Origin: an uncultured Nitrospirota bacterium | GTDB lineage: Bacteria > Nitrospirota > Nitrospiria > Nitrospirales > UBA8639 | Assembly (NCBI GenBank): GCA_937139405.1 | Contig: CAKZPV010000050.1 | Coordinates: 62,001 to 126,000 of the forward strand | Direction: 5' to 3' | DNA: 64,000 nucleotides | Part shown: positions 6,499-27,692 of the stretch, one piece after another | Numbering within the stretch: position 1 is the first letter of the stretch | Layout: each line of letters begins with the position of its first letter | The notes under the pieces: model-generated | What the model was told of the DNA's origin: nothing | Database searches by the model: none | The model's input: the letters and a program-made list of their open reading frames with translations, nothing else | Program-made: the position numbers and the translations under genes

Positions 6499-6505
6499 TA
6501 ATCAC

Positions 6506-7834: not shown

Positions 7835-7837
7835 GTT

Positions 7838-7862
7838 TTTGAGAAATGTTCATTTTCTCAAA
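7838..7862. promoter_or_regulatory. Inter-gene hairpin between the two cytochrome genes
   Basis: A perfect 9-bp inverted repeat, TTTGAGAAA and TTTCTCAAA, with a 7-base loop, begins three bases after the stop of the first cytochrome gene. No T-run follows, so it is not a standard intrinsic terminator. It could be an mRNA-stabilising or processing hairpin that sets the relative levels of the two cytochromes. Confidence 0.45.
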
Positions 7863-7892
7863 CGACTCGACTACTGTTAAAGGAAAAGGCTT

Positions 7893-9134
7893 ATGCATAA
7901 AGGGATGATTACCAAAACGCGGTTTCTTTTTCCCACTTTCGCTGTTGTGGGGTGTATGCTTGCGGTAACCATGTTGGTTGTGTATCTGCCCGCGGCAATA
8001 GCGGCCAAAAAACCTATGGAAAAAGCTTTTCCAAGCTCCGAAAAATGCAAACGCTGTCATCTCCGAGTCTTTGAAGAATATGAAGCCTCAGCTCAATCGC
8101 GCTCCATTGTCACGGCGCCATTTCGAATGACGTTGGAACGGTACTTGGCCAAAGCGGACAAGAAAGACCAGGCGATGTGTTTTCAATGCCATGCTCCGCA
8201 CATTGCGGAATATCCTGAGCTCTTGCCTCGGTTCATCAAAGAAGTACAATCCAAAGATCCTCACATGGATGGAGTTGGGTGCCCGCAGTGTCATTTGATT
8301 CATGATGTTGATGCCAAAATGCATCCTCCTGTCCCAACGTTTCAATTGGGAAAAACTATTTTTGGAGGCTATGACAAAGCCGCGGAAAATTTAGCCCATC
8401 AATCTGAAAAACTTGAATTGTTTCGGGATTCTCAATTTTGTGTGACCTGTCATGATTCGTTGCCTCAAACATCACAAGCAGCCAAAGACCTTCCCGGTTG
8501 GTTGGGCGATTGGAAAACGTCAGAAACCGAGAAGAATGGGCAACCCTGTCAGTCTTGTCATATGCCAGAAGCGGTTGCTGAATCAGCCAATGGCGAAAAA
8601 ATTAGGAAAGTGGCTAATCATAGTTTTCCTGGAAGGTTTGGAAAAGTCCGCGCTGAAGCCGTTGAGCTGGATTTTTCAACTTCAGTGAAAGGAAAAACCT
8701 CTCAGGTGGATGTGACGATCAAAAGTCTCGTCCCTCATAATTTGCCGTTGCCTCATCCTGGATGGTCTCGAGTGGTCGTAGACTTGGCAATTAAAGGGAA
8801 GAATCTGAAAACGGTCTATAGCGAACAGCGGTTTTATCAACGCGTGTTTGGGGGGGTAGATGGCAAAGAGACGGTGTTAGATTTTGAAGCAAAAAAAGTC
8901 TTACAAGATACCCTTCTCAAGCCAGAAGAAACCCGCATAGAAAAATTTACGTTCCCCACACCCAAAGACGCCCCTTCCATGGACGTTGTCGTCACACTGA
9001 CCTATGCACCTGTTCATGGGCCCAAAGATTTTCTGAAGGCTATTGAGCAGGATGCCCCTCTCGGTCAAAAAGACCGTGCCTTCCAAACGGTTCAAATCGC
9101 GCAAAAAAAGACGAATGTGCTTCTCAAGAAATAG
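7893..9134 (+). CDS. Pentahaem cytochrome c, paralogue of the preceding gene
   Basis: A 413-residue exported multihaem protein. The signal segment is about residues 9-32 (ending IAAKK). Five CXXCH motifs follow: CKRCH, CFQCH, CPQCH, CVTCH and CQSCH. Their order, the segment FGGYDKAAENLAHQ before the fourth haem (FGPYAEPEENLVHP in its neighbour), the extra histidine (NHSFPG) and a C-terminal beta domain with LPHPGW all parallel the upstream cytochrome, so the two arose by duplication. AAAGGAAAAGG lies just before the ATG. Probably a periplasmic electron-transfer partner or half of a heterodimer with its neighbour; the substrate cannot be read from sequence. Confidence 0.9.
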   Translation: MHKGMITKTRFLFPTFAVVGCMLAVTMLVVYLPAAIAAKKPMEKAFPSSEKCKRCHLRVFEEYEASAQSRSIVTAPFRMTLERYLAKADKKDQAMCFQCHAPHIAEYPELLPRFIKEVQSKDPHMDGVGCPQCHLIHDVDAKMHPPVPTFQLGKTIFGGYDKAAENLAHQSEKLELFRDSQFCVTCHDSLPQTSQAAKDLPGWLGDWKTSETEKNGQPCQSCHMPEAVAESANGEKIRKVANHSFPGRFGKVRAEAVELDFSTSVKGKTSQVDVTIKSLVPHNLPLPHPGWSRVVVDLAIKGKNLKTVYSEQRFYQRVFGGVDGKETVLDFEAKKVLQDTLLKPEETRIEKFTFPTPKDAPSMDVVVTLTYAPVHGPKDFLKAIEQDAPLGQKDRAFQTVQIAQKKTNVLLKK

Positions 9135-9632: not shown

Positions 9633-10409
9633 GTGGAAAATCATGAAATTCAAAACTGGGAATCTTGGAAATCAGAGATTTCAAAAGTAAGATCCAATGA
9701 ATCGAGATTGAAGACTGAAGATAGATATATATCGAGTTTGCTTTTTCGAGGGCATAGAGGTGGGAGCTGGAAATTAGAATCCACTTTGGAACGCAAGGGA
9801 ATTGAACTGCCAGCCATAAATTCGTTTTCGACGCAAATCAAAGAAATTAAGCTTGCATTTGAGTCGTATATGGGGTCTAACTGGTCATCGGAATTCAAAG
9901 CCAGTGATGCACCGTCCCCGCCTGAAGATTACGAATTCATGGTATATCTCCGTCATCATGGTTACCCCACACCTTTGCTTGATTGGAGCAGATCACCGTA
10001 CATTGCTTCCTTCTTCGCGTTTCAGTATCCAAGCTTAGAAAACACTGTTGCGGTTTACTCATTCAGAGAGTACGCTGGTGGAGTTAAAAGCGGATGTGCA
10101 AATGATTCAAGTGTTGTTGGCTGTGGTCCAATAATACGAACTCATAAAAGGCATTATATCCAGCAGGCAGAATACACGTATTGCAGGAAGAAGGTTGGTG
10201 AGGATTGGTATTATTCGGGCCATGAGAAAGCGTTAAATAAAAGCAGCGGAGACCAAGATATCTTACAAAAATATTTGCTGCCGGCATGCATTAGAAGTGA
10301 GGTGCTGGCTGAACTAGATTCCATGAATATAAATGCGTATACATTGTACGGATCGGAGGAGGGTCTTGCGGAAATGTTGGCAAATAGAGAGTACAGATAT
10401 AAATCCTAA
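9633..10409 (+). CDS. FRG-domain protein
   Basis: A 258-residue protein with the FRG signature: LLFRGH near residue 37 and HHGYPTPLLDWSRSPYIA near residue 109, followed by a hydrophobic helix FFAFQYP. FRG domains (named for Phe-Arg-Gly) occur in small accessory proteins, often close to mobile or defence genes, and their biochemical activity is not settled. The GTG start has GGAG about 11 bases upstream. The gene stands alone, with 498 bases of non-coding DNA before it and a convergent ilvD after it, and its composition looks more AT-rich than its neighbours. These points suggest acquisition by transfer, as inference. Confidence 0.8.
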   Translation: MENHEIQNWESWKSEISKVRSNESRLKTEDRYISSLLFRGHRGGSWKLESTLERKGIELPAINSFSTQIKEIKLAFESYMGSNWSSEFKASDAPSPPEDYEFMVYLRHHGYPTPLLDWSRSPYIASFFAFQYPSLENTVAVYSFREYAGGVKSGCANDSSVVGCGPIIRTHKRHYIQQAEYTYCRKKVGEDWYYSGHEKALNKSSGDQDILQKYLLPACIRSEVLAELDSMNINAYTLYGSEEGLAEMLANREYRYKS

Positions 10410-10536
10410 CATTGCCATAAACTCGGATGCATTTTTCTTTCGCTTTACTCACTTTAAACGCGCGCTGATTACGGCTCGCGTTCAGCATTTTCACGGCGCT
10501 ACGTGGAATAGGTCAGTAGCCTTATAAATTTAATCT

Positions 10537-12210
10537 TCAACTTGTGACGGCGCCTTGGGAGGCTGAGGACACTAGCTTGGCGTATTTGGCCATGACGCCA
10601 CTCGTATAGCGTGGTGTGGGCGGGGTCCATGTTTTGAGCCGAGTTTGGATGTCCTGATCCGATAGTTCCACATCTAATCGTCGATTGGTGATATCCATGT
10701 TGATGATGTCTCCGTTTTGCACTGCGGCGATGGGGCCACCTTTCGCCGCTTCGGGTGCGACATGTCCTGCCATGAGGCCGTGGGTTGCGCCGGAAAAACG
10801 TCCATCGGTTAAGAGAGTGACGGATTCACCCAACCCTGCTCCAACAATGGCGCTAGTGACGCCTAACATTTCCCGCATACCTGGCCCACCTTGTGGGCCT
10901 TCGTAACGAATGACGACAACATCACCGGCTTCGATGCCTCCCAGTTGAACGGCTTTAAATGCGTCTTCTTCGCATTCGAAGACTTTGGCTGGGCCTTTAT
11001 GGGTTAATTTTTTATGCCCTGCCACTTTCACCACACAGCCGTCAGGGGCCAAATTGCCTTTTAAGATAACCAGGCCTCCTGATGGTTTGATAGGATTGGC
11101 AACTCTATGGAGGACCTGTTGGCCTGCTGTTTCTTTGGCTGAGGCGGCTTCCTCTTTGAGAGATCGGCCGGTGACTGTGATTTGCTCTCCTTGTAGATGG
11201 CCTGCCTCCAAGAGCCATTTGGCTACTAGTGGAGTTCCACCTGCTTGATAGAGATCGGCTGCCATATACTGCCCACCTGGCTTCAAGTCTGCTAATAACG
11301 GTACTTTCCGGTTGATCGTATCGAAGTCATCGATAGTCAGCGGAACCGACAGCTCATGGGCAATAGACAGTAAATGCAGCACCCCATTTGTGGAACCGCC
11401 AGTGGTGGCAATGGCGGCAATAGCATTTTCCAGAGCTGGGCGTGTGATGATGTCTCGCGGCCGCAGATTCTTTTTCAACATGTTGATCAAGAGTTTTCCG
11501 CATTCTTTCGATACCTCATGTTTCTTGGGATCGAGTGCAGGAATACCGTTGAAGCCCATGGGCGAAATACCTAAAAATTCAAACGCAATGGCCATTGTAT
11601 TGGCTGTAAACTGACCTCCGCAGGCTCCCGCTCCAGGGCAGGCGCGTCGTTCTAATTCAGTGAGTTCTTCGGTGCTCATCTTCCCTCGAGAATGTGAGCC
11701 GACAGCCTCGAAGACGTCTTGAATCGAGACAGGTTTGCCATGGAATTCTCCGGGCATGATGGAGCCTCCATAAAGCATGAGTGAAGGAAGATTGAGACGG
11801 GCTAAGGCCATCACGCAGCCTGGGATAGTTTTATCACAACCTGAGATAGCGATGACGCCATCAAAGAGGTGTCCACGGACCGCGAGTTCGATGGAATCTG
11901 CAACAACCTCTCGGCTGATGAGCGAGGCTTTCATGCCTTCTGTGCCCATGCTGATGCCATCGGAGACGACGATGGTGTTGAATTCGATCGGTGTGCCACC
12001 GGCATCGCGAATCCCTTCTTTGATGCTGGCGGCCAGCTCGCGGAGATGATAGTTGCAAGGTGTGACCTCCGACCAGGTGTTGGCCACAGCGATCAGTGGT
12101 TTATTGAAGTCCTCATCCACCAAGCCGACGGCTCGTAACATGGCACGGGCGGGTGCTCGGTCGGGTCCTTCTGTTAAGGTTTTGCTATTATGTTTGAGAG
12201 ATTCAGCCAT
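10537..12210 (-). CDS. ilvD: Dihydroxy-acid dehydratase
   Basis: A 557-residue IlvD/Edd-family enzyme that converts 2,3-dihydroxy-isovalerate and 2,3-dihydroxy-3-methylvalerate to the 2-oxoacids in valine and isoleucine synthesis. The iron-sulfur and Mg2+ site motifs are all present: TPCNYHL (about residue 51), SGCDKTIPG (about residue 123) and [17 protein letters not shown] (about residue 190). The C-terminal part has [16 protein letters not shown]. Length is normal for the family. AAAAAGGAG lies about 8 bases before the ATG. It stands alone, with no other ilv gene nearby. Confidence 0.96.
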
Positions 12211-12401
12211 GAATGAGAACTCCTTTTTGGTCTATGATTTGATGCAAGCTTTGTGAGTAAGTCTGTGAGGATGCGTTTCAAGTTATTTATGAAGACAACG
12301 CGCGTAACCTAGGGCTTACGCCAGAAATACCTGTCAAAATTTGAATGTCTCATAACTGTAATGAAGGGGTCAATGCGGCGAAATCGTTTCTTTTCTGTGG
12401 C

Positions 12402-13307
12402 TTATCTCGCCGGTTGAGATGGCGTGACCGAGGTAAGGTAGTTTTGCAAACGGTGTTTCCCAGATTCTCCTGCGGTAGACGGTGTGCTGAGTATGAGCCA
12501 ATAAGGGTTTGGAAATTGGTACGTATCATCATGGCGATGTGCATCGAGAAAATCTCGTAATCGGGGGTGTTGTCGCCATTTTGGGAGTGGAGTGGTATCC
12601 ATCACGCTTTGTTGGAGATATTGTTCTAGCAGGCGATCTTCTCTAATCGAAATGGTGTGGGTACAGGGTAGCTCGCGGATGATATTCGTGGCTCCCAGTT
12701 CTTCTAACATCACCACGACGGATTCTGCTGAGAGGTAGGGTGGTGGCGTGTATTCAGCACAATGTTCATAAAACAATTGATGGATTTGAGGAAAAAAAGC
12801 TTGGTGCTTGGCTAATACAAAGCAGGCGGTGCCTCGTGTAGGATGAAGGGTTCTGAGGAGCTGTTGAAGTGCCATGTGCAAATGGGCTTGTTCAAGGCAA
12901 TATAATGATTGGATAGCCCAGGCGACATCATAAGTTCCAGTCTCGAGGACCTCTTGGGAATGTTCTAAGGTTGTTTGCCAACCATGTCGTGGGAGAAACG
13001 GTGCCTTGAGTGTTTCTTGACATGTGGCGAGACAATAATGGGAAGGATCAAGATAGTCGTATTGAATACGAAGTGTGACGGGTAATTGTGGCTGAAGCAT
13101 TTTGGGGAACCGTCCCGTTCCACAACCCACATCCAGTAATTGAAAATCTTCATGCTGTGTAAAAAACATTTTTTGCCAATTGATGGCTGCAATCAGTTGG
13201 GTGTAGTCATGCTCGACAATCTTGAACCATGCCTCGGGCTGTAGCACTCCTTTTTGGTAATATTGTAAAGAACGTTGGAGATTTGTGTTGAGGTTTGGAG
13301 GTGTCAT
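12402..13307 (-). CDS. Class I SAM-dependent methyltransferase
   Basis: From the ATG at 13307 (AAGG six bases upstream) this is 301 residues; a TTG ten codons earlier is less likely. SAM-binding motif I is LLDVGCGTGRFP at about residue 57 and an acidic motif (YDYLDPSH) follows. The middle region (YDVAWAIQSLYCLEQAHLHMALQQL) matches motif IV and the helix that follows in type-11-like methyltransferases. Substrate unknown. Its start codon shares the bases CATG with a possible start of the divergent gene on the + strand. It points the same way as ilvD but 191 bases away, so co-transcription is uncertain. Confidence 0.8.
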   Translation of the reverse strand: MTPPNLNTNLQRSLQYYQKGVLQPEAWFKIVEHDYTQLIAAINWQKMFFTQHEDFQLLDVGCGTGRFPKMLQPQLPVTLRIQYDYLDPSHYCLATCQETLKAPFLPRHGWQTTLEHSQEVLETGTYDVAWAIQSLYCLEQAHLHMALQQLLRTLHPTRGTACFVLAKHQAFFPQIHQLFYEHCAEYTPPPYLSAESVVVMLEELGATNIIRELPCTHTISIREDRLLEQYLQQSVMDTTPLPKWRQHPRLRDFLDAHRHDDTYQFPNPYWLILSTPSTAGESGKHRLQNYLTSVTPSQPAR

Positions 13308-14046
13308 GAGTAACCTTACTCTTGATGGAGTCAACAAGAGTCATCGTAACCCTGTCAGGTTTGTAGGGACAACCCAGAAAGGGTGGCCAACGTTTTTCGA
13401 TTCTCACGATACTCGGGTGTGCGTTTGGGAGAGCATATGCTTAGTTGTGGTAATAATTAATTTAGTGCTGTATCCAAGCCAAGGGGAAACGAGAGAGTTT
13501 CCTGCCGACTTGGCACAGCAATACGTGAGTCCTGAGCTGGCAGCGTTGAACTCACACCGTGTGTTTTTGGTGTCAGAACGGGCCAGTTCTGCCATGGTGA
13601 AAACCATCATGACATTGTTGGCTACACTTGATGAAGCGGAGGTTTTGCCATCTGAAGGAACGGCTCAAGCGAATCAAGTGATTCATGGGGTTATCCAATT
13701 ACAATCAGCTCTTATGAAATCACCATCTCCTGAGTTAGCAGCCTATTGGATGGCAGCTGAAGCTCATTGGACGAGTCAGCGTAATGACAGACAAGATGGA
13801 GTGTTGAGACGAGAAGGTTTGACGACTGAGGTTTTGGCTGCGTTGATTCTTTGGGATGAAGAGCATCCAATGTGGAAAGACCAGAAGGTGGTTTCAGCAA
13901 TGCAAGCGTTTAATGTGACCCATGAAGATTGGTTGTTCATGGTTAACCTCTTTCATCAAGCCAATATGGTGTTTCGTGAACAAGGGCGCTCCATTCACAA
14001 GGTCTACGATACATGGCGAGTGAACCTATCAGGTGGGGAGTCTTAA
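13306..14046 (+). CDS. Hypothetical exported protein
   Basis: Not recognised. Start choices: ATG at 13306 (GGAGG four bases upstream, 246 residues) or GTG at 13417, which would put the hydrophobic segment ICLVVVIINLVLYPSQGE at the very N-terminus as a normal signal peptide and avoid overlap with the divergent methyltransferase. The mature part is mostly helical (LALNSHRVFLVSERASSAMVKT-like stretches, then ELAAYWMAAEAHW), with no cysteine motif or known domain. It is convergent with the oxidoreductase gene that ends 12 bases downstream. Probably periplasmic; function unknown. Confidence 0.6.
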   Translation: MSNLTLDGVNKSHRNPVRFVGTTQKGWPTFFDSHDTRVCVWESICLVVVIINLVLYPSQGETREFPADLAQQYVSPELAALNSHRVFLVSERASSAMVKTIMTLLATLDEAEVLPSEGTAQANQVIHGVIQLQSALMKSPSPELAAYWMAAEAHWTSQRNDRQDGVLRREGLTTEVLAALILWDEEHPMWKDQKVVSAMQAFNVTHEDWLFMVNLFHQANMVFREQGRSIHKVYDTWRVNLSGGES

Positions 14047-14058
14047 TCTACGGTGGTT

Positions 14059-15030
14059 TTATTGCTGAAAATGGACTGGTTGTTTGGTATATGCTGCCTG
14101 ATAACAGGCCTCAGCGAGTTCCACTGCCCGAAGGCCATCTTCTCCAGTAATGGGAACCGGTTCACCTGTTTCTAGGGCCTGAAAAAAATCCTTGAGTATT
14201 AGTACGATCGTGGGGGTAGCTGGTATGAATTCTTCAGAAACGAGTTTTTCGTTTTCAAAGGTTTGTAGCAGGCCTTTTGTCCAATCACCTCGAATGCGTC
14301 CTTTTGTCCCAATAATTTCAATGTGGGTGACTCGTTCTGTACTGACTCTGCCGATATCTAAATGACAAGAAAGCCCTGAACCAGTCGAGATGGTAATCTT
14401 CGCATGCCTCTCAGGTAAGTTAGAAGAAGAACGAGTCATGTTCGCGGATACTGTAAGCGGCTCTTTCGGTATCATGCTACGAACCCAGTCCAACAGATGG
14501 ATGCCGAACTCTAAGAGAACTCCGTGAACGTTTCTTCTTTCCCCATTGGTCTCTGGCTGTTCTTCCAAGTGCATAGTTCCGCTTAAAGACTTCCAGGGGC
14601 CAAGGCTTTGGGCAATTTCTTGCAGTTTTCGAATGATCGGTTCGTATCTCAATGTATGCCCAGTCATAAGGGGAATGCCGGCTTGAGCGGCAGCTTCAAC
14701 GAGGTACTTCCCTTCCTGAGAATTCAAAGCGAGTGGTTTTTCGAGGAGAACAGCCTTTTGGCATTGTATCGCCTTCAAAGCGATTGGGACATTTAAGGCA
14801 GGTGGGGTGACGATCAGCACAGCTTTGATTGCCGGGTTGGCGACAAGGTTCCGATAGTCTGGGAAGAATTGAATATGGTGCTGAGCTGCTTGTCGATATC
14901 CTTCTTCTACTTGGCGGCGGCTAATGGCTATGAGTTTGCCGCCAGTTTCTTGATCAATGAGATGACGAAAATATCGACTACCGTGCCGTCCAAGTCCAAT
15001 GAGTCCTACTGGGATCGGTGTGTTCAGCAT
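14059..15030 (-). CDS. Gfo/Idh/MocA-family oxidoreductase
   Basis: A 323-residue NAD(P)-dependent sugar or cyclitol dehydrogenase-like protein. The Rossmann motif GLIGLGRHGSRYF lies at residues 9-21, followed by the family motif LEKPLALNSQEG near residue 97, whose EKP lysine is the usual catalytic or nicotinamide-binding residue. A C-terminal alpha/beta domain begins near residue 125. The substrate cannot be read. A hypothetical gene lies 53 bases upstream on the same strand and may be co-transcribed. Enzymes of this family often make sugar nucleotides, consistent with the envelope genes further along, but that link is only by proximity. Confidence 0.87.
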   Translation of the reverse strand: MLNTPIPVGLIGLGRHGSRYFRHLIDQETGGKLIAISRRQVEEGYRQAAQHHIQFFPDYRNLVANPAIKAVLIVTPPALNVPIALKAIQCQKAVLLEKPLALNSQEGKYLVEAAAQAGIPLMTGHTLRYEPIIRKLQEIAQSLGPWKSLSGTMHLEEQPETNGERRNVHGVLLEFGIHLLDWVRSMIPKEPLTVSANMTRSSSNLPERHAKITISTGSGLSCHLDIGRVSTERVTHIEIIGTKGRIRGDWTKGLLQTFENEKLVSEEFIPATPTIVLILKDFFQALETGEPVPITGEDGLRAVELAEACYQAAYTKQPVHFQQ

Positions 15031-17185: not shown

Positions 17186-18502
17186 TTGTTTGCCCAATCT
17201 CGCTTCCTCCTGAAGAATACGTCTTTTTATTCTACGTTTTCTCAAGGGGTTTGGACGATCCAAGGGGGAGGCTTATTTCTTCTTACGGTTTTTAGTTTTT
17301 TCCCGTCACTATTCCATTTACAAGAAATTCTTTTTTTCGTGCTTTTAGGATTAGCCCTCTTTGTCGGATGGCTCGAGGAAAAAGATCTTAGAGTCCGAAC
17401 CCCTATTGATCTTCCATTATTCTTGTTGTTGGTATGGATTCTTTTGTGTATTCCATTTTCTTTGAATCCCGAATACAGTTTTGTCGAATGGCGAAAACTT
17501 ATTGCTCAGTGCTTAGTCTTTTATTGGGCTGTTTTTGTCCTGCGTGAGATTTCCCTGAGACCGCAGGGCGAAAGTTTCTGCCTTCCTTTCAAAACGATAG
17601 AAGTTAGTAGATCCACCTCTCCACAAAATGTGTTCCTAGGAGTGCTTGTCAGTACGATGCTGCTGGCAGTTTTGGCGCTAATAGATTTTATAGATCGCGG
17701 GGGGAATTGGCAGGACAGAAATATTAGAGCCCTTGTTCCAGGATCAGATTATAACTGGTTGAGCACTTATATGGTTCTCGCTATGCCAGTTATTGTGTAT
17801 GTTGGAATGACCACACGTTTGTTGTGGGAAAAAATATTTTCCATTGGAGCAGGTGTTCTGGGTCTGATTGCCCATGCTGCCTCATATACACGAGCTGGTT
17901 GGTTGGCTGCCGCCGTACAACTTTTCTCTTGGAGCCTTATTACGCGACGACGTGTTCTGTTCATCAGTCTTATCCTTGGACTGATTCTAGTTTTTGTTGC
18001 TTCGAGAGAGATTACTCAGATGGGATTTCATGCTGATACGCTCCATTCCTGGACGTTAGAAGCACGAATCCAAGTTTGGGGTTTAGGAATTGATCAAATG
18101 ATCAGTCATCCTATTGTAGGTATTGGATATGGAAATAACATTTTCCAGCCTGTTTTAGTTAATTCACCTATGGGGGATAGTCCTATGCATCTACATAATA
18201 CCCCCCTGATGATAGGTGTTGGGAGCGGGATCCCAGGGTTAGTGTTTTTTTTGTGGGTTTTTGCTCGTCTAGGGGTTGAGCTTTTGCCTAGAAAACCAAA
18301 AAAAGATTGGACTGATTTTGACATTCTCAAGTTTTGTCTAGGAATAGTCTTGGTGGGTTTCTTCTGTCGAAACTTGTTTGATTATATGTTTGCCGGAAGT
18401 TTGGCGTATTTGTTTTGGATCTTGATGGCTTGTGGGCAAGAGTCTCAGAAAGGAATGGCCTCGACTTACAAGAATCAGGAAACGAGGCTGAGTAATGTGT
18501 GA
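17186..18502 (+). CDS. O-antigen ligase / Wzy-C-type membrane protein
   Basis: A 438-residue polytopic protein with about ten to twelve membrane spans and a large periplasmic loop near residues 285-335. The loop holds the Wzy_C signature: EARIQVWGLGIDQMISHPI, then GIGYGNN and MHLHNTPLMIGVGSGIPGL, including the functionally important His and Arg. The family includes WaaL ligases, which attach O-chains to lipid A-core, and Wzy polymerases. Because the polysaccharide locus downstream uses an ABC exporter, which needs a ligase but no Wzy, WaaL is the better guess. The TTG start has GAGAGGGGG six bases upstream. Likely co-transcribed with kdsD. Confidence 0.83.
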   Translation: MFAQSRFLLKNTSFYSTFSQGVWTIQGGGLFLLTVFSFFPSLFHLQEILFFVLLGLALFVGWLEEKDLRVRTPIDLPLFLLLVWILLCIPFSLNPEYSFVEWRKLIAQCLVFYWAVFVLREISLRPQGESFCLPFKTIEVSRSTSPQNVFLGVLVSTMLLAVLALIDFIDRGGNWQDRNIRALVPGSDYNWLSTYMVLAMPVIVYVGMTTRLLWEKIFSIGAGVLGLIAHAASYTRAGWLAAAVQLFSWSLITRRRVLFISLILGLILVFVASREITQMGFHADTLHSWTLEARIQVWGLGIDQMISHPIVGIGYGNNIFQPVLVNSPMGDSPMHLHNTPLMIGVGSGIPGLVFFLWVFARLGVELLPRKPKKDWTDFDILKFCLGIVLVGFFCRNLFDYMFAGSLAYLFWILMACGQESQKGMASTYKNQETRLSNV

Positions 18503-19216
18503 AGAAATTTTTTAGCATCACCATCTTAAATGGGCACGTCAATGTAATTAAAAGTTCGTGGTCGTAAAGTTCAAGCTGAATGTCTGGTCTTATGTCTTTG
18601 ATTTCTTCTTCGAATAAGGTCGTTGGGAAGGGCATTGTGTGTTGGAAGTTAGAAGAAAATAGAGAGTTGTGTGCAAGAAATCTTAGCGCACTAATTTCCA
18701 TTTGGTGTTTATACAGAGTCCATGCTCTCGACGAGAAGAAATGAAATCTCAAAAAATGTACAAGAAACATGCGAAATTCCGAGCATTTCAGGGGAAGATT
18801 TAGGGAAGTGCAGGAACAACTAGGAGTCAACAGCTACGCTCAAGGGGGAGGTGTTCGGAATATATTTTTTTGTCGAAAAAATTTTCTCGGTTATTGGCGT
18901 TCTGCATCCGATTTCATGAATTTCTTCTGATTTTTGTAGGTTTTCAAGCGCTCGATTTCTCTAATGTTAAAAACTTTTCCGTGTTTGGAAAATATGATCG
19001 TTTAATTTCTGAATTTTTCTCTCATGTACAAGAAAAAACCAATGTAAAAACAATATCTTACATGCAAGTGCCTTAGGCATTCTATGCCTGGCAAAAGTTT
19101 TGCTCAAGCTTGAAGTAGAAGTGTTAAAGACGCTTCCTATCCATAGCTAACAAAACGGATTGCTCAGACATGTGGAAATTTGCAACACAGGATCAAGAAA
19201 AGGAGAACAACGGTCG
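18503..19216. other. About 700 bases without a convincing gene
   Basis: AT-rich and irregular. A 167-codon minus-strand frame (18327-18830) overlaps the ligase gene and reads as random sequence; a 68-codon + frame at 18870-19076 lacks a start signal. A structured element at 19070-19103 is listed separately. The segment may contain the promoter for the STN-like gene; no strong consensus is seen. Confidence 0.5.
19070..19103 (+). promoter_or_regulatory. Tandem inverted repeats upstream of the STN-like gene
   Basis: GCC-TT-AGGCAT is followed by TCT and then ATGCCT-GGC, a nine-pair stem with a two-base bulge and a three-base loop (19070-19092). The right arm runs into a second palindrome, GCAAAA-G-TTTTGC (19091-19103). 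The two structures are mutually overlapping by two bases. The second half is too tight for an RNA loop and looks more like a protein-binding dyad. There is no downstream T-run for a terminator. Confidence 0.4.
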
Positions 19217-19951
19217 ATGAGTACTTATCCCAGTGCAAACCGAAGTCAAGAGAAAGTTCAACGGTTAGTCGCGGGAATTTTGTTACTTGGTTGGTTGGTT
19301 TTAGGAAATGGGAGCCTTGGAATCGCATCAGAAACACACTCTCCGCTGGGGATACAAAGGGATCGTATTAGCGGAGTACTTACTCAGGTTCCTTTACGCA
19401 TGATATTAGATCAGCTTCAGGAGAAATTAGCTATTAATTATGTTGCGCCTAGGGAAGAACTCGATAAGCCCGTTTCTGTCAATTTAACTGGTGAACCGGT
19501 GAGCAACGCCCTCTCAAAAATTCTGGCTTCGTGGGACTATGCCTTACAAGTTGATCAACAGGGAACAGTACATCAAATTTTTGTGGTTGCCAAAATGGAG
19601 CCAACTGCAATTGAGGAAAATGCAATAACAACATTCGAATCAAAAAAGGCAATTTTCTCCGGAAAAATAATGAGTAGTGAACCTATTCTTAGTACTCCTA
19701 GGGCAGTGGTGTCTTTACCTGAGGTAGATGTGATTCAACATCCTGAGGAGAATGCGCTAGTTACTCCTATGTTTGTTGAGCGTCCCCATAGTTTGGAGCC
19801 TATGGTCATTCAATCTCCTCAAGGGAAGTCAATGAATATTCAACCGTCATCGAATTTTATGGAAGTGATTCCCGCATCTGGATACCCACCGATGAACATT
19901 CTTCCAGCTTCTGAAGATGCACAAAGGGAATCTGTTGAAGGCTATAACTGA
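19217..19951 (+). CDS. Exported protein with STN (secretin/TonB N-terminal)-like domain
   Basis: From the ATG at 19217, preceded by AAAAGGAG, the product is 244 residues; an upstream TTG at 19160 lacks such a site. A hydrophobic segment at about residues 19-36 (GILLLGWLVLGNGSLGIA) is a signal peptide. Residues about 45-130 fit an STN domain: ISGVLTQVPLRMILDQLQEK, then VSVNLTGEPVSNALSKIL and a closing strand IFVVAK. The C-terminal 110 residues are low complexity, rich in Pro, Ser, Glu and Ile. STN domains sit in secretins and TonB receptors; here no barrel follows, so it may be an accessory or pilot component of a secretion or pilus system. Confidence 0.75.
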   Translation: MSTYPSANRSQEKVQRLVAGILLLGWLVLGNGSLGIASETHSPLGIQRDRISGVLTQVPLRMILDQLQEKLAINYVAPREELDKPVSVNLTGEPVSNALSKILASWDYALQVDQQGTVHQIFVVAKMEPTAIEENAITTFESKKAIFSGKIMSSEPILSTPRAVVSLPEVDVIQHPEENALVTPMFVERPHSLEPMVIQSPQGKSMNIQPSSNFMEVIPASGYPPMNILPASEDAQRESVEGYN

Positions 19952-20186: not shown

Positions 20187-21848
20187 ATGAAAAAGGAAAA
20201 ACCAAATTCCACATTGTGGTTGATAGGTGGGTTAGCGGCACTAACATTTCTGTGTGTAGGGTCAATAGCAGCTGCACAAACCGTGACGTCTTACAATGAT
20301 TTGGCTTGGGGGGCTGGCCAGCTAAATACAAATATTACCACGTTTACCTCTCCGGCCGGTGGATCAGGGTTGCTCAGTACGGGGAAATTGAAAAATTTTG
20401 ATAATGGTGCTGCGACTGATGTGACGCTGACTGTTACTGGAGGGACATTTGATGGTACGGCTCAAGCTACACAGGGCGCCAATCCAACAATGGGAGATGC
20501 CTTTACTATCTTTGATGGGAAAGTGAACGGTCTGGGTGCTATTTCTTATATAAGTGCAGGAAACCCGGATCTGGTACTTACCTTTACAGACATGAGTCCG
20601 AATAAGGTTTATGATTTGACCTTCTTTGCCGATCGTGATGCGAACGCTTGGGATCGAGCATCTTTAGTGACCATCTCTGGGCAAGATGCTTTTGTGAATA
20701 CAAGTTCCGTCGCATCGGATAATCCCGATACTGGGAATTTCCCTGGGGGTGTTATATTTACGGGACCTACATCTCCTGTCACACGGTTGCCGGCAGATAA
20801 TAATAATGGATATGTTGCACGATTTAGCACTATCAAGTCTGGCAGCGATGGCACGGTTGTGCTAACCATCAGTTTTGATGGTTCTGTGCCCGAGCAATTC
20901 AAAGGGAAATATGCCAGTGCGCTTCGGCTTATTGAATCAGGAAATACCACTAATGATATAGATGGTGATGGCAAGGCCGACATTGTGCTGCGGAATATGA
21001 ACACTGGAGATGCAGGGGCGTGGTTGGGGAATGGGCTGACACTTGGGTCAACGGGCCTCATTGCTGCGGGAGTGGCAGCCGAATGGGTTGTTGTAGGCAA
21101 TGGCGATTTGGATGGTGATGGCAAAGCTGATATTGTGTTACGTAATTCGGTGACTGGGGATGTAGGAGTATGGCTCGGGAATGGGCTGACACTCGGGTCG
21201 ACAGGCGTCATTGCTACGGGAGTGGCAGCAGAATGGATCATTGTCGGTCTGGGTGATTTGGATGGTGATGGCAAGGATGATATTGTGGTGCGCAATACTT
21301 CCACAGGTGATGTTGGGGCATGGCTGGGCAATGGACTGACGCTCGGGTCGACAGGCATCATTGCCACTGGGGTAGCGACCGAATGGGTCGTAGCGGGCCT
21401 GGGAGATGTCAATGGTGATGGCAAGGACGATATTGTGGTGCGCAATACCTCCACCGGGGATGTAGGAGTGTGGCTTGGGAATGGGTTGACGCTCGGGTCG
21501 ACAGGCGTCATTGCGGCAGGAGTCGAGGCCGTATGGGTCATTGTCGGTCTCGGTGATTTAGATGGTGACGGCAAGGACGACATAGTCGTGCGCAATACGG
21601 TTGATGGGTCGATAGGGGCGTGGCTTGGGAATGGGTTGACGCTCGGGTCGACAGGCGTGATTGCGGGACCGGGTACCGTATGGACCGTAGCAGACATTGG
21701 TGATGTGAATGGTGATGGCAAGGCTGATATTGTGTTACGTAATTCGGTGACTGGGGACGTAGGAGTGTGGCTCGGGAATGGGCTGACGCTCGGGTCGACA
21801 GGCGTCATTGCTGCTGCTGTACCCTTGGAATGGAAGATCAAACCCTAG
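20187..21848 (+). CDS. Secreted protein with six VCBS/FG-GAP-type calcium-loop repeats
   Basis: Starting at the second ATG (20187), which is nine bases from GAAAGGA, the protein has 553 residues; the ATG at 20178 abuts that site. A signal peptide (about residues 9-30, ending AAAQT) leads into a beta-sandwich-like domain of about 225 residues rich in Thr, Gly and Asn, without a recognised active site. Residues about 257-553 are six repeats of about 50 residues, each beginning D(L/V/I)(D/N)GDGKxDIV, a calcium-binding DxDGDGxxD loop, and containing WLGNGLTLGSTG. Such proteins are extracellular or surface-bound. A neighbour carries the same repeats. No LPXTG or PEP-CTERM anchor is seen. Confidence 0.85.
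   Translation: MKKEKPNSTLWLIGGLAALTFLCVGSIAAAQTVTSYNDLAWGAGQLNTNITTFTSPAGGSGLLSTGKLKNFDNGAATDVTLTVTGGTFDGTAQATQGANPTMGDAFTIFDGKVNGLGAISYISAGNPDLVLTFTDMSPNKVYDLTFFADRDANAWDRASLVTISGQDAFVNTSSVASDNPDTGNFPGGVIFTGPTSPVTRLPADNNNGYVARFSTIKSGSDGTVVLTISFDGSVPEQFKGKYASALRLIESGNTTNDIDGDGKADIVLRNMNTGDAGAWLGNGLTLGSTGLIAAGVAAEWVVVGNGDLDGDGKADIVLRNSVTGDVGVWLGNGLTLGSTGVIATGVAAEWIIVGLGDLDGDGKDDIVVRNTSTGDVGAWLGNGLTLGSTGIIATGVATEWVVAGLGDVNGDGKDDIVVRNTSTGDVGVWLGNGLTLGSTGVIAAGVEAVWVIVGLGDLDGDGKDDIVVRNTVDGSIGAWLGNGLTLGSTGVIAGPGTVWTVADIGDVNGDGKADIVLRNSVTGDVGVWLGNGLTLGSTGVIAAAVPLEWKIKP
20955..21848 (+). repeat. Six tandem coding repeats of about 150 bp
   Basis: Units begin at 20955, 21105, 21255, 21405, 21555 and 21702; all are 150 bp except the fifth (147 bp) and the shortened last. 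Within units the stretch encoding WLGNGLTLGSTG is nearly invariant at DNA level. Units 2 and 6 are the closest pair: 21126-21215 and 21723-21812 differ at three of 90 positions. The array is prone to unequal recombination and to assembly collapse. Confidence 0.9.
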
Positions 21849-22058
21849 ACGGGTAAGTGATCGATATTCTCCTGAAGAAGGTAGCCGCTTTTTCGAGCGA
21901 GGAAAAACTGCTTTCGATCTGGCAGAATGAATAGAGGACAGGTCGGTGGTGAACATCATCCATTCACCATCGGCCCCCTAATTTATTCTTAAGAATAAGG
22001 AAGTCCCCCTTTTGATGCGTATCGGTTTACATAGGATATAGACCAGCCCGCCCCCAGG

Positions 22059-22097
22059 AATATAGATTAGTTTTGGCCAGCAAAACTAATCTATATT
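22059..22097. repeat. 17-bp perfect inverted repeat with 5-base loop
   Basis: The left arm (22059-22075) begins AATATAGATTAG and ends TTTTG; the right arm (22081-22097) is its exact reverse complement; the loop is GCCAG. Both arms are AT-rich. No T-run lies outside the stem on either side, so a simple intrinsic terminator is unlikely on either strand. It may be a bidirectional stop of another type, a dispersed chromosomal repeat, or a small mobile-element relic. Confidence 0.8.
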
Positions 22098-22233
22098 ACC
22101 TAGTTTCCTATAGGATATTCTGGAAAATGGTTATGAGTTGCATTTCTAACAACAGATTGGAAGTTTAAGCCAAGGTCTATTGATACGAGTTCACTTGTGT
22201 AATTCCCCCGCAGTGAAGAGGTAGTACACAATC

Positions 22234-22262
22234 ATTAGAAAATAATTTTCTTCTCGTCTAAT
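22234..22262. promoter_or_regulatory. Nested AT-rich dyad before the phosphatase gene
   Basis: ATTAGA (22234-22239) and TCTAAT (22257-22262) form an outer dyad; inside, AGAAAAT-A-ATTTTCT (22237-22251) is a 15-base palindrome overlapping the outer left arm. It lies about 50 bases upstream of the likely GTG start, a position suited to an operator. No -10/-35 pair can be assigned with confidence. Confidence 0.35.
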
Positions 22263-22312
22263 AGTTGGTCTCCGCGGATGCAACCCAGTTCCTCCCAGGA
22301 ATAGGAGAAATC

Positions 22313-24382
22313 GTGCACATAATGAAGTTGTGGGTGACTCTTTGTTTGCTGGTTCTGTCTAGCTTGCCGGCTAATGCGGCCGTTTTGCGGGAACCGTACC
22401 TGCAATTGGTTACGCCGACATCTATCACAATAGTCTGGCAAACCGACTTAGCTTCGGCTAATGATAGTCGTGTCCAATACGGCACTGTGTCTGGCATTTT
22501 GAATCAAACGGCATTTGGGGCTGCTACTATTCCCCCCTCTAATGCTTCTGCTAAAAATCATGTGGTGACGATCACTGGATTGAGTCCTTCTACCACATAT
22601 TTCTATAACGTGGGGACAGTAACAAATGGTTTTCAAGCCGGTGGGACGACGAACCATTTTCTTGTAACTGCCCCAACTGTGGGGACGGCCACTTCTTTTC
22701 GAGCTTGGGTCCTTGGCGATTCTGGCGATGGCGGTGGTGATCAGACTAATGTTCGAAATGCCATGTTGACTGAGACCGCCTCCAATCCTCCGGCGCCAGA
22801 CCTTATTCTACATGCGGGAGATATGGCATACGACAATGGCACCGATGCTGAATTTACCAGCAATCACTTTACTATCTATCAGGATATTCTCCGTCATACC
22901 CCCTTGTGGCCGACCTTAGGGAATCATGAAGCTGTCTCGGTTAACACTCCTATGGGAATTGGGCCTTACTACGAGGCTCATGTTCTGCCGACCAGCGCTG
23001 AAGCCGGGGGAGTCTCTTCTGGCACTGAGGCGTACTATTCCTTTAATTACGCCAATACTCACTTTATTGTGCTTGATTCCATGGATAGTAATCGAGCACC
23101 AGGCTCCCAGATGTTGACGTGGTTACAAGCAGACCTTTCGGCAACTACTCAGGAATGGGTCATTGCCTTTTTCCACCATCCTCCGTATACCAAAGGCTCG
23201 CATGATTCAGATAGTAATGTCGACTCCGGCGGCCGCCTAACTGATATGCGTGAAGATGTCCTTCCCATTCTAGAAGCTGGTGGAGTGGACCTTGTTCTCG
23301 GAGGGCATTCGCACATCTACGAAAGGTCTTATCCCTTACGCGGTGCATTTGGAAAGGGCACGAGTCCAAATTTTGCTACCCCAGATTTTAATACGCTGCT
23401 CTCAAGCGGCAATATCCTCGAGACAGGAAATGGTAACCCAGGGAGTGGTGGGGCATACAAAAATGGGACCGTCTACGTAGTTGCAGGTCATGGTGGGAGA
23501 TCGATTGGCAGTGGTAGTGCAAATCACCCAGTCATGTTTTTCTCGGAAAAAGAGTTTGGCTCGGTGCTGTTGGATGTCAATGGGCCCATCCTAACGGTTC
23601 GAAATGTTCGAGTAAATGGGGCGATCACAGATACGTTCTCCATCAACAAGACTGGTTTGGGAAATATTGTTTTGCGGAATAAAGCCACCGGGGATGTGGG
23701 TGTGTGGTTGATGAATGGGTTAATGATTGGGTCGGCGGGTGTGATTGCAGCAGCAGTGCCGGCGACATGGGGCATTGTCGGCCTTGGTGATGTGGACGGT
23801 GACGGCAAGGATGATATTGTGTTGCGCAATGCGGTCACTGGAGATGTGCAGGTATGGCTGGGAACTGGTGGACTGACCCTCGGTTCGACCGGCACAATTG
23901 CAGCAGCGGTGGATCTCGTATGGGTTATTGTAGGCCTCGGAGATTTAGATGGTGATGGCAAGGATGACATTGTGCTACGTAACACGGTCGATGGGTCTGT
24001 GGGCGCATGGTTGGGAAATGGTCTGACGCTCGGTGCAACGGGCATCATTGCGGGAGCACCATCAGAATGGGTCATTGCTGGTCTTGGTGATTTGGATGGA
24101 AATGGTACGGACGATATTGTGCTGCGCAATATGAATACTGGAGATGTGGGAGTGTGGCTTGGGAATGGGCTCACGCTCGGTGCCGCGGGCATCATTGCCT
24201 CAGGAGTGGCTGCCGAATGGATCATTGCCGGCCTCGGTGATTTGGATGGGAATGGTACGGACGATGTTGTGGTGCACAATACGGTCACCGGGGATGTGGG
24301 GGCGTGGCTGGGTAATGGATTGACGCTCGGTGCGACGGGCATCCTTGCGACCACGGTACCCTTGGAATGGGAGATTCAATAA
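22313..24382 (+). CDS. Secreted purple-acid-phosphatase-type metallophosphoesterase with C-terminal VCBS-like repeats
   Basis: The GTG at 22313 has AGGAG five bases upstream and gives 689 residues; ATG at 22322 is the alternative. A signal peptide (MKLWVTLCLLVLSSLPANA) precedes a fibronectin-like N-domain (REPYLQLVTPTSITIVWQT to about residue 115), as in purple acid phosphatases. The catalytic domain carries the full dinuclear-metal motif set: GDSGDGG, GDMAYDNG, GNHEAV, FFHHPPY and GGHSHIYER. It should hydrolyse phosphate esters outside the cytoplasm. From about residue 445 there are five of the 50-residue repeats found in the upstream gene; the first lacks the DxDGDG loop. The fusion suggests the repeats anchor or localise the enzyme. 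Confidence 0.9.
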   Translation: MHIMKLWVTLCLLVLSSLPANAAVLREPYLQLVTPTSITIVWQTDLASANDSRVQYGTVSGILNQTAFGAATIPPSNASAKNHVVTITGLSPSTTYFYNVGTVTNGFQAGGTTNHFLVTAPTVGTATSFRAWVLGDSGDGGGDQTNVRNAMLTETASNPPAPDLILHAGDMAYDNGTDAEFTSNHFTIYQDILRHTPLWPTLGNHEAVSVNTPMGIGPYYEAHVLPTSAEAGGVSSGTEAYYSFNYANTHFIVLDSMDSNRAPGSQMLTWLQADLSATTQEWVIAFFHHPPYTKGSHDSDSNVDSGGRLTDMREDVLPILEAGGVDLVLGGHSHIYERSYPLRGAFGKGTSPNFATPDFNTLLSSGNILETGNGNPGSGGAYKNGTVYVVAGHGGRSIGSGSANHPVMFFSEKEFGSVLLDVNGPILTVRNVRVNGAITDTFSINKTGLGNIVLRNKATGDVGVWLMNGLMIGSAGVIAAAVPATWGIVGLGDVDGDGKDDIVLRNAVTGDVQVWLGTGGLTLGSTGTIAAAVDLVWVIVGLGDLDGDGKDDIVLRNTVDGSVGAWLGNGLTLGATGIIAGAPSEWVIAGLGDLDGNGTDDIVLRNMNTGDVGVWLGNGLTLGAAGIIASGVAAEWIIAGLGDLDGNGTDDVVVHNTVTGDVGAWLGNGLTLGATGILATTVPLEWEIQ
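23655..24379 (+). repeat. Five tandem coding repeats, same family as 20955-21848
   Basis: A degenerate first unit is followed by units starting at 23789, 23942, 24089 and 24239 (spacings 153, 147 and 150). Encoded units share DxDGxGxDDIV and WLGNGLTLG with the upstream array, but have TLGATG or TLGAAG where the other array has TLGSTG, and two have DLDGNGTDD loops. The arrays therefore diverged as separate sets after duplication. Confidence 0.88.
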
Positions 24383-25396
24383 AGGATCTCTAAATGAGGC
24401 CGTGGCCTCAGCATATGACCTTTTTGACGGAAAAGACACAGTTACAGGCTCGTTTGACGGCAGATAGAAAGAAGACTTTTCTGAGTTTTCATTGCTGGCA
24501 ACATTTGATCTAAATCATTACCCACAATATTTAAGTAGTTTTCTGCGAAGCCCTCCTTGATTGGCCCACCCTGTAGACTCGATTCTCACTGGAATTATTT
24601 TTTAAATTCCTGGTTTTTCTAATCCTCTAGCGAATAAGAAACGCAGGTAGAGTATGCGATAAATAAATCCCAGAGGGCTTTCCTTTTGTGCTTATCTACA
24701 TTCTGATTCTTTACAAACCACGATGACATATCTGAGCATTTTGAACGGTGTTGCTGCTAGGAGGTGAATTTGTTACAAACACTGGCATATAGGAAAAAAG
24801 AAGATAGAATTGAGCCTTTGAAATGTCTTATAGGTTATGTCAAAATTGAAAATTGGTTTTCTAGAAATTATTTCTTACTCTGATCCCCTCAGTATGCGTC
24901 CCCGAATTTCATGAAAGTTTTTCTTGTCCTAACTTCGTTCTACGACATAGTTATCCTTCTCCATCCTAATGGCGGGCTATCGAATTGGAGCGGCATGCTT
25001 GATAGCGCATGAGGAAAAAACCGTCAAGTTAAATTCTAAGATATCAGAAGAGTTTTACAATGAAAGGGATTTTCTTCAAAAATATGAACAATCAATATTT
25101 TTTCAGTGTCGTATCTCTTATCCCTACATGAACATCTCTGACAGTTGCCTGTGAAATATTCTGGCACATTTGAACCATGGCTGGAGCCCTTCTTTAGGTT
25201 GTGAACCTCTCCCACCTACAATATATTCACAAACTGATGCCATGAAGGAACTTATTCTATGTCATGAGATGTTGCATGGTTAATCTTGACGTGGAACATG
25301 TTTAGCGTTGTTTTGGGATTCCCTTAGTGAGTCTAAATTCATGGAGAATTTAATGAGAATCGCTTAGGCCGTATTCGGATTCTAGGGATACATTTG
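24383..25396. other. About 1 kb without a recognisable gene, upstream of the polysaccharide locus
   Basis: AT-rich and low in long open frames. A 61-codon frame at 24969-25154 has no ribosome-binding site and no family resemblance. No tRNA, transposase remnant or terminator hairpin was found, and no ops/JUMPstart-like GGCGGTAG element. A TTGACG at 25286 has no good -10 at the right distance. The long leader in front of wzm may hold the locus promoter and regulatory sites. Confidence 0.5.
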
Positions 25397-26227
25397 ATGA
25401 ACCCACATTCAGCACCGCCAACCTCACCAAGGTCCATGGTTCAAAGTCTTTGGTGTAACAGACAAATTATTTTCCACATGACCAAACGTGAAGTTCTCGG
25501 TCGTTATAAGGGTTCGGTCATGGGTTTGGTATGGTCTTTTCTAAACCCACTGTTCCTGTTAGTCGTATATACATTCGTCTTTTCAGTGGTATTCAAGGCA
25601 CGTTGGGGGTTGGGAGAAGATGAAAGTAAAACTCAGTTTGCCATCGTGCTGTTTGCAGGCCTAATCGTCCATGGGCTTTTTTCAGAAGTTCTCAATCGAG
25701 CGCCAGGCCTAATTCTTTCAAATGTTAATTACGTGAAGAAGGTGATATTTCCACTAGAAATACTTCCTGGAGTTGCCATGGGAGCGGCGTTATTCCATAG
25801 TCTGGTTAGTTTTGGTGTGCTCCTGGCTGCTTTTTTTCTCATAAAAGGTTTTTTACATTGGACAATTCTCTTTGTTCCGCTTGTGTTGTTGTCCCTGGTT
25901 GTGCTTACCCTTGGCCTAGCATGGTTGTTGGCCTCATGTGGAGTATTTCTGCGCGATGTGGGACAGACAGTCAATATTATGACAATGGTCATGTTGTTTC
26001 TTTCTCCTGTTTTTTATCCTGTAACAGCTCTTCCAGAGGAACTCCAGACATGGATTTGGTTAAATCCTTTGACATTTATTATAGAGCAGACCCGGGAAGT
26101 GCTTGTTTGGGGTCATTCGCCAGATTGGGTTGGGCTAAGTATTTATGGATTGGTTTCGTGCGCTATTGCTTGGTTAGGGTACCTCTGGTTTCAAAAGACT
26201 CGCCGGGGGTTTGCTGATGTCCTTTGA
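25397..26227 (+). CDS. wzm: ABC-2 polysaccharide export permease (Wzm-like)
   Basis: A 276-residue inner-membrane permease of the Wzm/TagG/KpsM type that carries undecaprenyl-linked O-chains across the cytoplasmic membrane. The N-terminal motif REVLGRYKGSVMGLVWSFL (residues about 30-50) is diagnostic; six spans follow, and the C-terminal region has the typical FLSPVFYP and LNPLTFIIEQTREV. ATG at 25397 follows AGGGA by eight bases (a TTG is one codon earlier). The ATPase gene overlaps its end by 11 bases, so the two are translationally coupled. Confidence 0.93.
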   Translation: MNPHSAPPTSPRSMVQSLWCNRQIIFHMTKREVLGRYKGSVMGLVWSFLNPLFLLVVYTFVFSVVFKARWGLGEDESKTQFAIVLFAGLIVHGLFSEVLNRAPGLILSNVNYVKKVIFPLEILPGVAMGAALFHSLVSFGVLLAAFFLIKGFLHWTILFVPLVLLSLVVLTLGLAWLLASCGVFLRDVGQTVNIMTMVMLFLSPVFYPVTALPEELQTWIWLNPLTFIIEQTREVLVWGHSPDWVGLSIYGLVSCAIAWLGYLWFQKTRRGFADVL

Positions 26228-27692
26228 ACATACGAATACGATTTCTCTTCCTTTAATCATGAATAATGAAATGAGGCAAGAGAATACAAATTTTGACGGA
26301 GTAGCCCCTAGTTTAGCTATCAATGTCAGTCATTTGAGTAAACGTTACGAAATCTATGATACTCCGCGCGATCGCTTGAAACAGTTTGTTCTTCCCATGA
26401 TTCAGGGGTTAACTGGGAATACACCAAAACAATATTTTAAGGAATTTTGGGCGCTTCAAGATATTTCTTTCCAAGTTGAGGTTGGAGAGACTGTGGCCAT
26501 CGTTGGACGTAATGGATCTGGTAAATCGACCTTACTCCAAATAATTAGTGGTACCTTAATGCCGTCTTCTGGCCGGGTCGAAACGCATGGCCGTATTGCC
26601 GCATTATTGGAGTTAGGGTCGGGGTTCAATCCAGAGTTTAGCGGAAGAGAAAATGTCTATCTGAGCGCAGTTGTGTTAGGCCTGAGTAAGGAAGAAGTGG
26701 ATGACAAATTCGATGACATTGCTGCATTTGCTGATATCGGAGCGTTTTTAGACCAACCTACAAAAACCTATAGCTCTGGAATGTTGATGCGGCTGGCTTT
26801 TTCCGTAAACACATGTTTAGAACCTGACATTCTCATTGTTGATGAAGCCTTGAGCGTTGGAGACGTCCCTTTCCAGTCAAAATGTTTTAAGCGGCTTAGA
26901 AAATTGAGCGACGCTGGAACAAGCATTTTATTGGTTTCCCATGACATATCAACTGTACGCTCTATTTGCCGGCGTGCACTTTGGTTGCAACAGGGCGGGT
27001 CTGAAATGTGGGGTGAGGCCAAAGAAGTGGCTAAAAAATATGAAAAATTTTGTTGGCAGGAACAAGGCGTGGTCTTGGAAGCACCGGAAATCGAAACAAA
27101 AGAATTTTCTAACCCACCTAGTTTGTCTGCAAATGGAGATGAAAGTTTCTTGGGTATTCCAGATCTTCTGTTCGAGCCAAATCCTACTTTTGAATCGAAT
27201 CGGCAGGGTTCAAGTATGGGAACCAAAGTTGTCAGAATAAAAAATTTCCTGATGTTGAATAAGGATGGTTGTGTTGCGCTGTCTTGTGAATATGATGAAA
27301 TTTTGAATTTATATTACCTCTTAGAGGTGTGTGAGGTAATCAATTCGGATTTTGTCCTTGGGTTTAGAATGCGTGACATAAAAGGGAATTTCGTCTTTTC
27401 TGCTTGCGATTTGAACAAAGTTCAGCGAATGGAGGCTAGTCCTGGGGATCGGTTTGTTCTTTCGACCACTATGAAAATCCCATTGGCTCATCAAGACTAT
27501 GTCATCTTAACAGGGGTTTTTGGTTTTAAGGACGGTATGGCCTTTAATAATACAGTGTATGATTTTTCTCAAGCGATGATTTGGGATGTCATTGAGGATG
27601 CAGCCTATTTGAAAGTTCATCCACATAAAGTAATACCTATGCCAGGTCCAGTCAACGCATCATTTGATCTTAATATAGAAAAATTATATTGA
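26217..27692 (+). CDS. wzt: ABC transporter ATP-binding protein with C-terminal glycan-recognition-type domain (Wzt-like)
   Basis: A 491-residue ATPase partner of the preceding permease. Walker A is GRNGSGKST (about residue 97), the signature is YSSGMLMRLAF (about residue 184; SSGM replaces LSGGQ, as usual in Wzt), Walker B is ILIVDEALS (about residue 203) and the switch is LLVSHD. Residues about 335-490 form a beta-sandwich domain like that of Wzt, where it recognises the capped end of the O-chain before export. A methyl-capped end would fit the methyltransferases that follow. The linker (about 255-330) is long. ATG 26217 is preceded by GGGGG. Confidence 0.93.
   Translation: MSFEHTNTISLPLIMNNEMRQENTNFDGVAPSLAINVSHLSKRYEIYDTPRDRLKQFVLPMIQGLTGNTPKQYFKEFWALQDISFQVEVGETVAIVGRNGSGKSTLLQIISGTLMPSSGRVETHGRIAALLELGSGFNPEFSGRENVYLSAVVLGLSKEEVDDKFDDIAAFADIGAFLDQPTKTYSSGMLMRLAFSVNTCLEPDILIVDEALSVGDVPFQSKCFKRLRKLSDAGTSILLVSHDISTVRSICRRALWLQQGGSEMWGEAKEVAKKYEKFCWQEQGVVLEAPEIETKEFSNPPSLSANGDESFLGIPDLLFEPNPTFESNRQGSSMGTKVVRIKNFLMLNKDGCVALSCEYDEILNLYYLLEVCEVINSDFVLGFRMRDIKGNFVFSACDLNKVQRMEASPGDRFVLSTTMKIPLAHQDYVILTGVFGFKDGMAFNNTVYDFSQAMIWDVIEDAAYLKVHPHKVIPMPGPVNASFDLNIEKLY

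Follow-up and report, generated by a model that had tools for sequence, protein, structure and literature searches.

Beta-propellers built from VCBS-like repeats are typically linked with carbohydrate recognition (PMC9218822). The six-bladed propeller of UmbA4, from the Streptomyces umbrella particle, has been solved bound to teichuronic acid, with the glycan at sites on the blades, and shows calcium loops conserved across the blades and divergent pocket positions (PMC13274773). In PVL and tachylectin-2 the sugar pocket is formed by a GW motif (PMC8023676). The present work concerns a repeat module of this class that ends two neighbouring secreted proteins, here named P2 and P3, in a stretch of 64,000 nucleotides (the window) from an uncultured Nitrospirota bacterium of the Nitrospirales (UBA8639; assembly GCA_937139405.1, contig CAKZPV010000050.1, positions 62,001 to 126,000). 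The module recurs on other secreted proteins of the genus. Its fold is well known, and it probably serves as a common domain by which proteins are held at the surface or in the matrix. Nothing relevant to the module itself was found in the literature searched.

Repeat units and predicted fold

P2 and P3 both have signal-peptide-like N termini and both end with their repeat module. Eleven tandem units of 47–51 residues apiece were identified in the window, six in P2 (48–50 residues) and five in P3, with a mean column identity of 77% in an alignment of all eleven; this repetition is far above chance level. The sequence-only reading had described eleven units of about 50 residues, each with a calcium loop, one of them degenerate, and the string WLGNGLTLG. 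The units and the single degenerate loop were recovered, the pattern D-x-[DN]-G-[DN]-G-x-x-D being intact in 10 of the 11 and lost in P3 unit 1 (INKTGLGN), but the string is exact in only nine: P3 unit 1 reads WLMNGLMIG and P3 unit 2 WLGTGGLTLG. The WLMNG spelling of P3 unit 1 is the usual form in congeners. Pfam assigned FG-GAP_3 to both proteins (E 1.4e-33 on P2, 1.4e-16 on P3), and FG-GAP as well. A start at 20178 is possible for P2, with 20187 as its second ATG. The start of P3 most likely lies at 22322 and not at the TTG at 22265, since the predicted signal peptide begins there and the ortholog in genome G015 agrees.

The part of P3 that precedes the module is assigned to the purple-acid-type phosphatases by its domains, its PDB relatives and its motifs. 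Pfam matched Pur_ac_phosph_N (3e-13, 50.6 bits against a cut-off of 30) and Metallophos (9.9e-17, 62.4 bits against 21.5), and the PDB relatives were plant purple acid phosphatases (8e-12). The metal-ligand motifs are complete, with GDSG, GDMAY, GNHE, FFHH and GHSH following the pattern DxG, GDxxY, GNHE, xxxH, GHxH. These domains and motifs, together with the repeats that end both proteins, bear out the earlier proposal that a phosphatase and a second secreted protein have a common C-terminal module. The literature searched held nothing relevant on purple acid phosphatases in Nitrospira.

The P2 module was modelled with AlphaFold2 from an alignment of module relatives from the window and further loci, without congener sequences. 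The model comprised six four-stranded units (24 strands) at a predicted local distance difference test score (pLDDT) of about 90. Its best structural match was UmbA4 with teichuronic acid (9oee_A; Z 31.2, rmsd 2.5 over 299 residues), to which it aligned round the whole ring. The next chains were unrelated six-bladed propellers at Z ~17 (17.1 at the top) and fungal N-acetylglucosamine lectins at Z 16. The five-unit module of P3 likewise ranked UmbA4 first (Z 22.1), and a profile of the modules run against PDB sequences matched integrin alpha chains only. The P2 module is predicted from the model to fold as a six-bladed propeller of the known VCBS/FG-GAP class, and its calcium sites are likewise predicted. 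The Pfam matches, the integrin matches and the six-bladed model all agree with the initial call of VCBS/FG-GAP-like repeats. An integrin-type seven-bladed arrangement was ruled out by blade number and length (six repeats of ~49 residues in 60 of 65 carriers), and a fibre-like arrangement of VCBS repeats was set aside because AlphaFold2 predicted a ring.

Across 451 repeats of the genus, W12, W23, G27, W43 and the calcium loop are conserved and about 10 positions are freely variable. The strict form of the loop, DxDxDG, was present in 353 of the 451. Tryptophan at position 23 (98%) and glycine at position 27 (94%) correspond to the conserved G and W of loop CD, an assignment taken from the strands predicted by AlphaFold2. 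Of the GW motif of loop DA', the W was kept in 89% of the repeats, preceded by A, D, E, V or N and not by G.

The module across the genus

The sequence-only reading had proposed a search of related genomes for other proteins ending in the repeats, and the module does recur there on many secreted proteins. Among 65 complete congener carriers, exactly six repeats were counted in 60, and in 62 the module reaches the last residue. The front parts of the carriers include purple acid phosphatase, the P2 domain, PASTA, PKD, bacterial Ig, fn3, InlB-type repeats, SBBP and an HExxH protein, and one genome (G019) holds 96 repeats across ~17 proteins. One exception has a six-blade module near its N terminus (L191:5386-7863, G014), followed by carboxypeptidase-regulatory-like domains. 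Of the 21 genomes of the genus, 15 gave strong module matches, as against 1 of 176 genomes sampled from the rest of the order; blades of this type are nevertheless common in other phyla. A hydropathy scan detected no strong C-terminal membrane span. Sorting-domain models from NCBIfam and Pfam, including the type IX C-terminal domain and PEP-CTERM, gave no match to P2 or P3 at E values up to 1, and identity of the module with a type IX secretion or PEP-CTERM tag was rejected for want of a family match. As a genus-wide C-terminal cap, the shared module is better supported than it was from the window alone.

Two loci (L074:2565-16267 in G003 and L075:3312-18000 in G019) each contain four consecutive long genes that all end in a six-blade module, three of those scanned being rich in PASTA domains. 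A large opposite-strand gene, caspase-like by eye, adjoins these genes, and a similar gene, again caspase-like by eye, adjoins a carrier at L199:195-3578.

The favoured reading, to which we give about an even chance, is that the repeats form a C-terminal, calcium-stabilised VCBS/FG-GAP beta-propeller of six blades (five units in P3) that serves as a common retention domain. Carriers would be exported by way of their Sec signal peptides with the module at the C terminus, and the module would bind glycan and so hold them in extracellular polysaccharide or on the cell surface. P3, held at the surface, would release phosphate from organic esters, with P2 as its co-held partner. Three steps of this reading are putative: that the module binds glycan, that carriers are retained outside the cell, and that the polysaccharide of the locus is the ligand. 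The reading is preferred because the structural match to the glycan-bound UmbA4 propeller stands out, because the fixed six repeats and the C-terminal position sit behind differing front parts, because no strong C-terminal membrane span was detected, and because polysaccharide-export genes lie on both sides of the P2–P3 pair. Several points weigh against it. The GW motif behind the sugar pocket of PVL and tachylectin-2 is reduced to its Trp (89%), the residue before it being mostly not Gly, and likeness of a predicted fold at 20% identity is no proof that glycan is bound. The 568-residue class and some other carriers are located outside polysaccharide loci, the passage of carriers across the outer membrane is left unexplained, and the ligand, localisation and activity of the carriers are all putative.

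A plainer explanation is that FG-GAP propellers were duplicated in the genome and came to bind different things from one protein to the next, without any docking role that all of them share. FG-GAP/VCBS propellers are widespread and known for repeated amplification (PMC9218822), and in the sister clade of G003, G010, G014 and G019 the module tree follows carrier orthology and the modules have diverged, as if each has its own ligand. However, the combination of six repeats and C-terminal position across unrelated front parts, in a module near-confined to the genus, suggests one shared role. In the lineage of the window, moreover, the modules of P2, P3 and a further carrier, C8, cluster within each genome (100/99), although the front domains attached to them show orthology between species; because of this discrepancy the modules of that lineage appear from the protein tree to have been homogenised or exchanged, not very recently. 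Recent DNA-level tract conversion between P2 and P3 was rejected, the longest shared exact stretch being 21 bp and identity between the genes at most 78%. We regard separate binding roles as unlikely. The sequence-only reading had been prepared to give way should the repeats belong to an ordinary FG-GAP family with no link between carriers; the repeats do match ordinary FG-GAP/VCBS, which in part counts against that reading.

The STN-like family and the P2–P3 pair

A small gene upstream of P2 encodes a secreted protein with an STN/secretin-N0-like segment and a tail of M-x-(I/V)-x-P motifs (Table 1). The Pfam STN match (PF07660) to the window protein reached 13 bits, below the cut-off of 28.4, and was weak in 7 of 13 family members (best E 9e-4); a comparison of the family with the PDB returned no relatives. 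Alignment of the family revealed invariant spaced Met residues, and every one of the 13 rows has a tail in which the M-x-(I/V/M)-x-P motif occurs four or five times, the background of this motif in the proteins of the window being 0.26 per 1000 residues. STN-like relatives (29–63% identity) were found in 14 of 15 module-positive genomes, the window's own included, the family being limited to the genus; G009 is module-positive and has no STN gene. Six module-negative congeners yielded one relative (G005), which is weak and tail-less and has no carrier beside it. A search of the literature for STN together with FG-GAP returned nothing relevant.

In all 19 testable places a repeat carrier lies no more than ~6 kb from a gene of this family, a count confined to places where the contig reaches far enough and leaving out six further copies at contig ends. 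Four arrangements were distinguished: directly upstream of P2 (G000, G015, G007); 70–90 bp downstream of a carrier type of 568 residues, in many congeners and in the Nitrospirota record L077; ~4 kb downstream of a 628-residue carrier, from which a BBP2_2 barrel separates it, with Wzm/Wzt following; and, in G007, upstream of a carrier of 1207 residues. Shared occurrence in a single clade does not count as independent evidence, but the separate arrangements partly do. Two family copies, at L204 (G016, contig C511) and L205 (G003, contig C14), adjoin carriers broken by stop codons.

This linkage raises an alternative in which the module acts at the C terminus as a signal for export or display, with the STN/MxIxP proteins in the periplasm as a partner dedicated to it, by the same logic as the C-terminal domains of type IX substrates. 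The near-obligate C-terminal position and fixed size of the module would fit such a role, as would the 19 of 19 placements in four arrangements, the co-distribution of family and module across the genus, the repeated M-x-(I/V)-x-P tail and the BBP2_2 outer-membrane barrel that adjoins the STN gene in one arrangement. On the other side, the STN call is sub-threshold with no PDB relative, two arrangements sit in polysaccharide loci, which could itself cause the co-location, G009 manages without the gene, one carrier has its module on the N-terminal side, and the co-distribution may come from a single clade. We consider a sorting role unlikely. Its fullest form, an undescribed system of the genus in which the six-bladed propeller is the address tag of ~17 secreted proteins and a small STN-like periplasmic protein, its tail bearing four or five M-x-(I/V)-x-P motifs, recognises that tag and passes the tagged protein on to the outer membrane or polysaccharide matrix, seems a shade less likely still. 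Retention on glycan is the simplest function and sorting with the STN family the most interesting alternative. The STN gene had earlier been taken for an export accessory; its linkage to carriers has held in every testable place, but the domain match is weak and the name "export accessory" is a guess.

The front domain of P2 had no match in Pfam or PDB and was detected only within the genus, where 10 of the 21 genomes have it, the window's own among them. A domain of the P2 type is also found joined to a phosphatase domain in a single protein of 1420–1505 residues with PKD domains and without repeats, which is encoded on another contig in the window's own genome and adjoins P2 and P3 in G010, G014 and G019. 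The joining of the two front domains in one protein, with the conserved adjacency of the genes, points to a probable functional link between P2 and the phosphatase, and since that protein is without repeats, the link does not need the module. The own-genome copy (L057:4758-9275, contig C4, 1505 residues) lies in a locus that also has a TPR protein and a BBP2_2 outer-membrane barrel. At L065 in G014, neighbouring proteins (6394-8670 and 10101-14372) have near-identical phosphatase domains, which suggests gene conversion inside that locus.

In every genome that has both P2 and P3 on contigs long enough for the test, the two genes are neighbours, namely in G000, G002, G004, G010, G014 and G019, with P2 represented in G004 by repeats at a contig end. 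In G007 and G015 each gene lies at a contig end, as a split pair would give, and G020 has a phosphatase carrier without a P2 relative. The two genes are thus conserved together, as the original proposal required. That proposal had gone on to cast P2, whose putative fold it gave as a beta-sandwich, as a possible scaffold and P3 as a possible cargo, assembled through contacts between their modules. The conserved adjacency and the fusion of the two front domains would suit such an arrangement; however, the fusion protein does without any repeats, and the published UmbA4 filaments form via bridging glycan (PMC13274773). No evidence was found of co-assembly by the module or of scaffold and cargo roles for the two proteins, and we judge such an assembly very improbable.

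The pair lies between polysaccharide-export genes, with a Wzy-like gene on one side and a Wzm/Wzt pair on the other (Table 1), and a KpsF-like protein (SIS and CBS domains) is encoded further upstream. A mobile element between P2 and P3 was ruled out, the perfect inverted repeat there being single-copy. Elsewhere in the window, a multihaem cytochrome c protein (6476-7834) was recognised by CxxCH-type Pfam matches.

Table 1. Features of the P2–P3 locus, in window coordinates.
Feature	Position	Strand	Description
Wzy/O-antigen-ligase-like gene	17186-18502		Pfam Wzy_C; upstream side of P2/P3
STN-like small secreted protein	19160-19951	+	Likely start 19217 (ATG); signal peptide, STN/secretin-N0-like segment, M-x-(I/V)-x-P tail; between Wzy-like gene and P2
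P2	20178-21848	+	Signal peptide, unclassified N-terminal domain, six-repeat C-terminal module
P2 module	20955-21845	+	Six four-stranded blades; predicted six-bladed beta-propeller (AlphaFold2)
Inverted repeat	22059-22097		Perfect, 17 bp, 5-nt loop; between P2 and P3; single copy in genome, no T run after
P3	22322-24382	+	Signal peptide, Pur_ac_phosph_N and Metallophos domains, five-repeat C-terminal module
P3 module	23642-24379	+	Five units, calcium loop of first degenerate
Wzm/Wzt exporter pair	25394-27692		ABC2_membrane, ABC_tran with Wzt_C; other side of P2/P3

Comparison with known systems

The fold is known, but the literature searched described no propeller of fixed blade number that generally caps the C termini of secreted proteins, many of them unrelated to each other, and is tied to one small gene family. 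Should the module prove to be a tag for retention or sorting, it would account for the way in which phosphatases and other exported proteins are kept on the surface in this genus, and would join the small number of C-terminal sorting schemes known from two-membrane bacteria. It also offers genes through which phosphate scavenging and biofilm building could be tested in a lineage that is difficult to culture.

Plant-type purple acid phosphatases (PDB 6git, 2qfp) have the same N-terminal domain as P3 and all of the metal-ligand motifs found in it; P3, whose activity is putative, differs from them by its extra C-terminal propeller. The bacterial integrin-type seven-bladed propeller (PMC3192720) likewise has one calcium loop per blade and matches the FG-GAP profile, but has seven blades rather than six and units of ~60 rather than 49 residues. 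With the VCBS/FG-GAP beta-propeller supercluster (PF13517, PF01839; PMC8023676) the module shares the DxDxDG loop, the signal peptide and the company of Ig-like domains; it stands apart in being locked at six C-terminal blades of 49 residues and in the reduction of the loop DA' GW motif to W. The C-terminal propeller lectin UmbA4 (PDB 9oee, PMC13274773) comes closest, with the same six four-stranded blades, the same C-terminal place on a secreted protein and conserved cation loops. Identity to it is ~20%, the blades of the present module are near-identical to each other, and the trypsin-like front part of UmbA is replaced by a purple-acid-phosphatase in P3 and by a domain without a Pfam match in P2.

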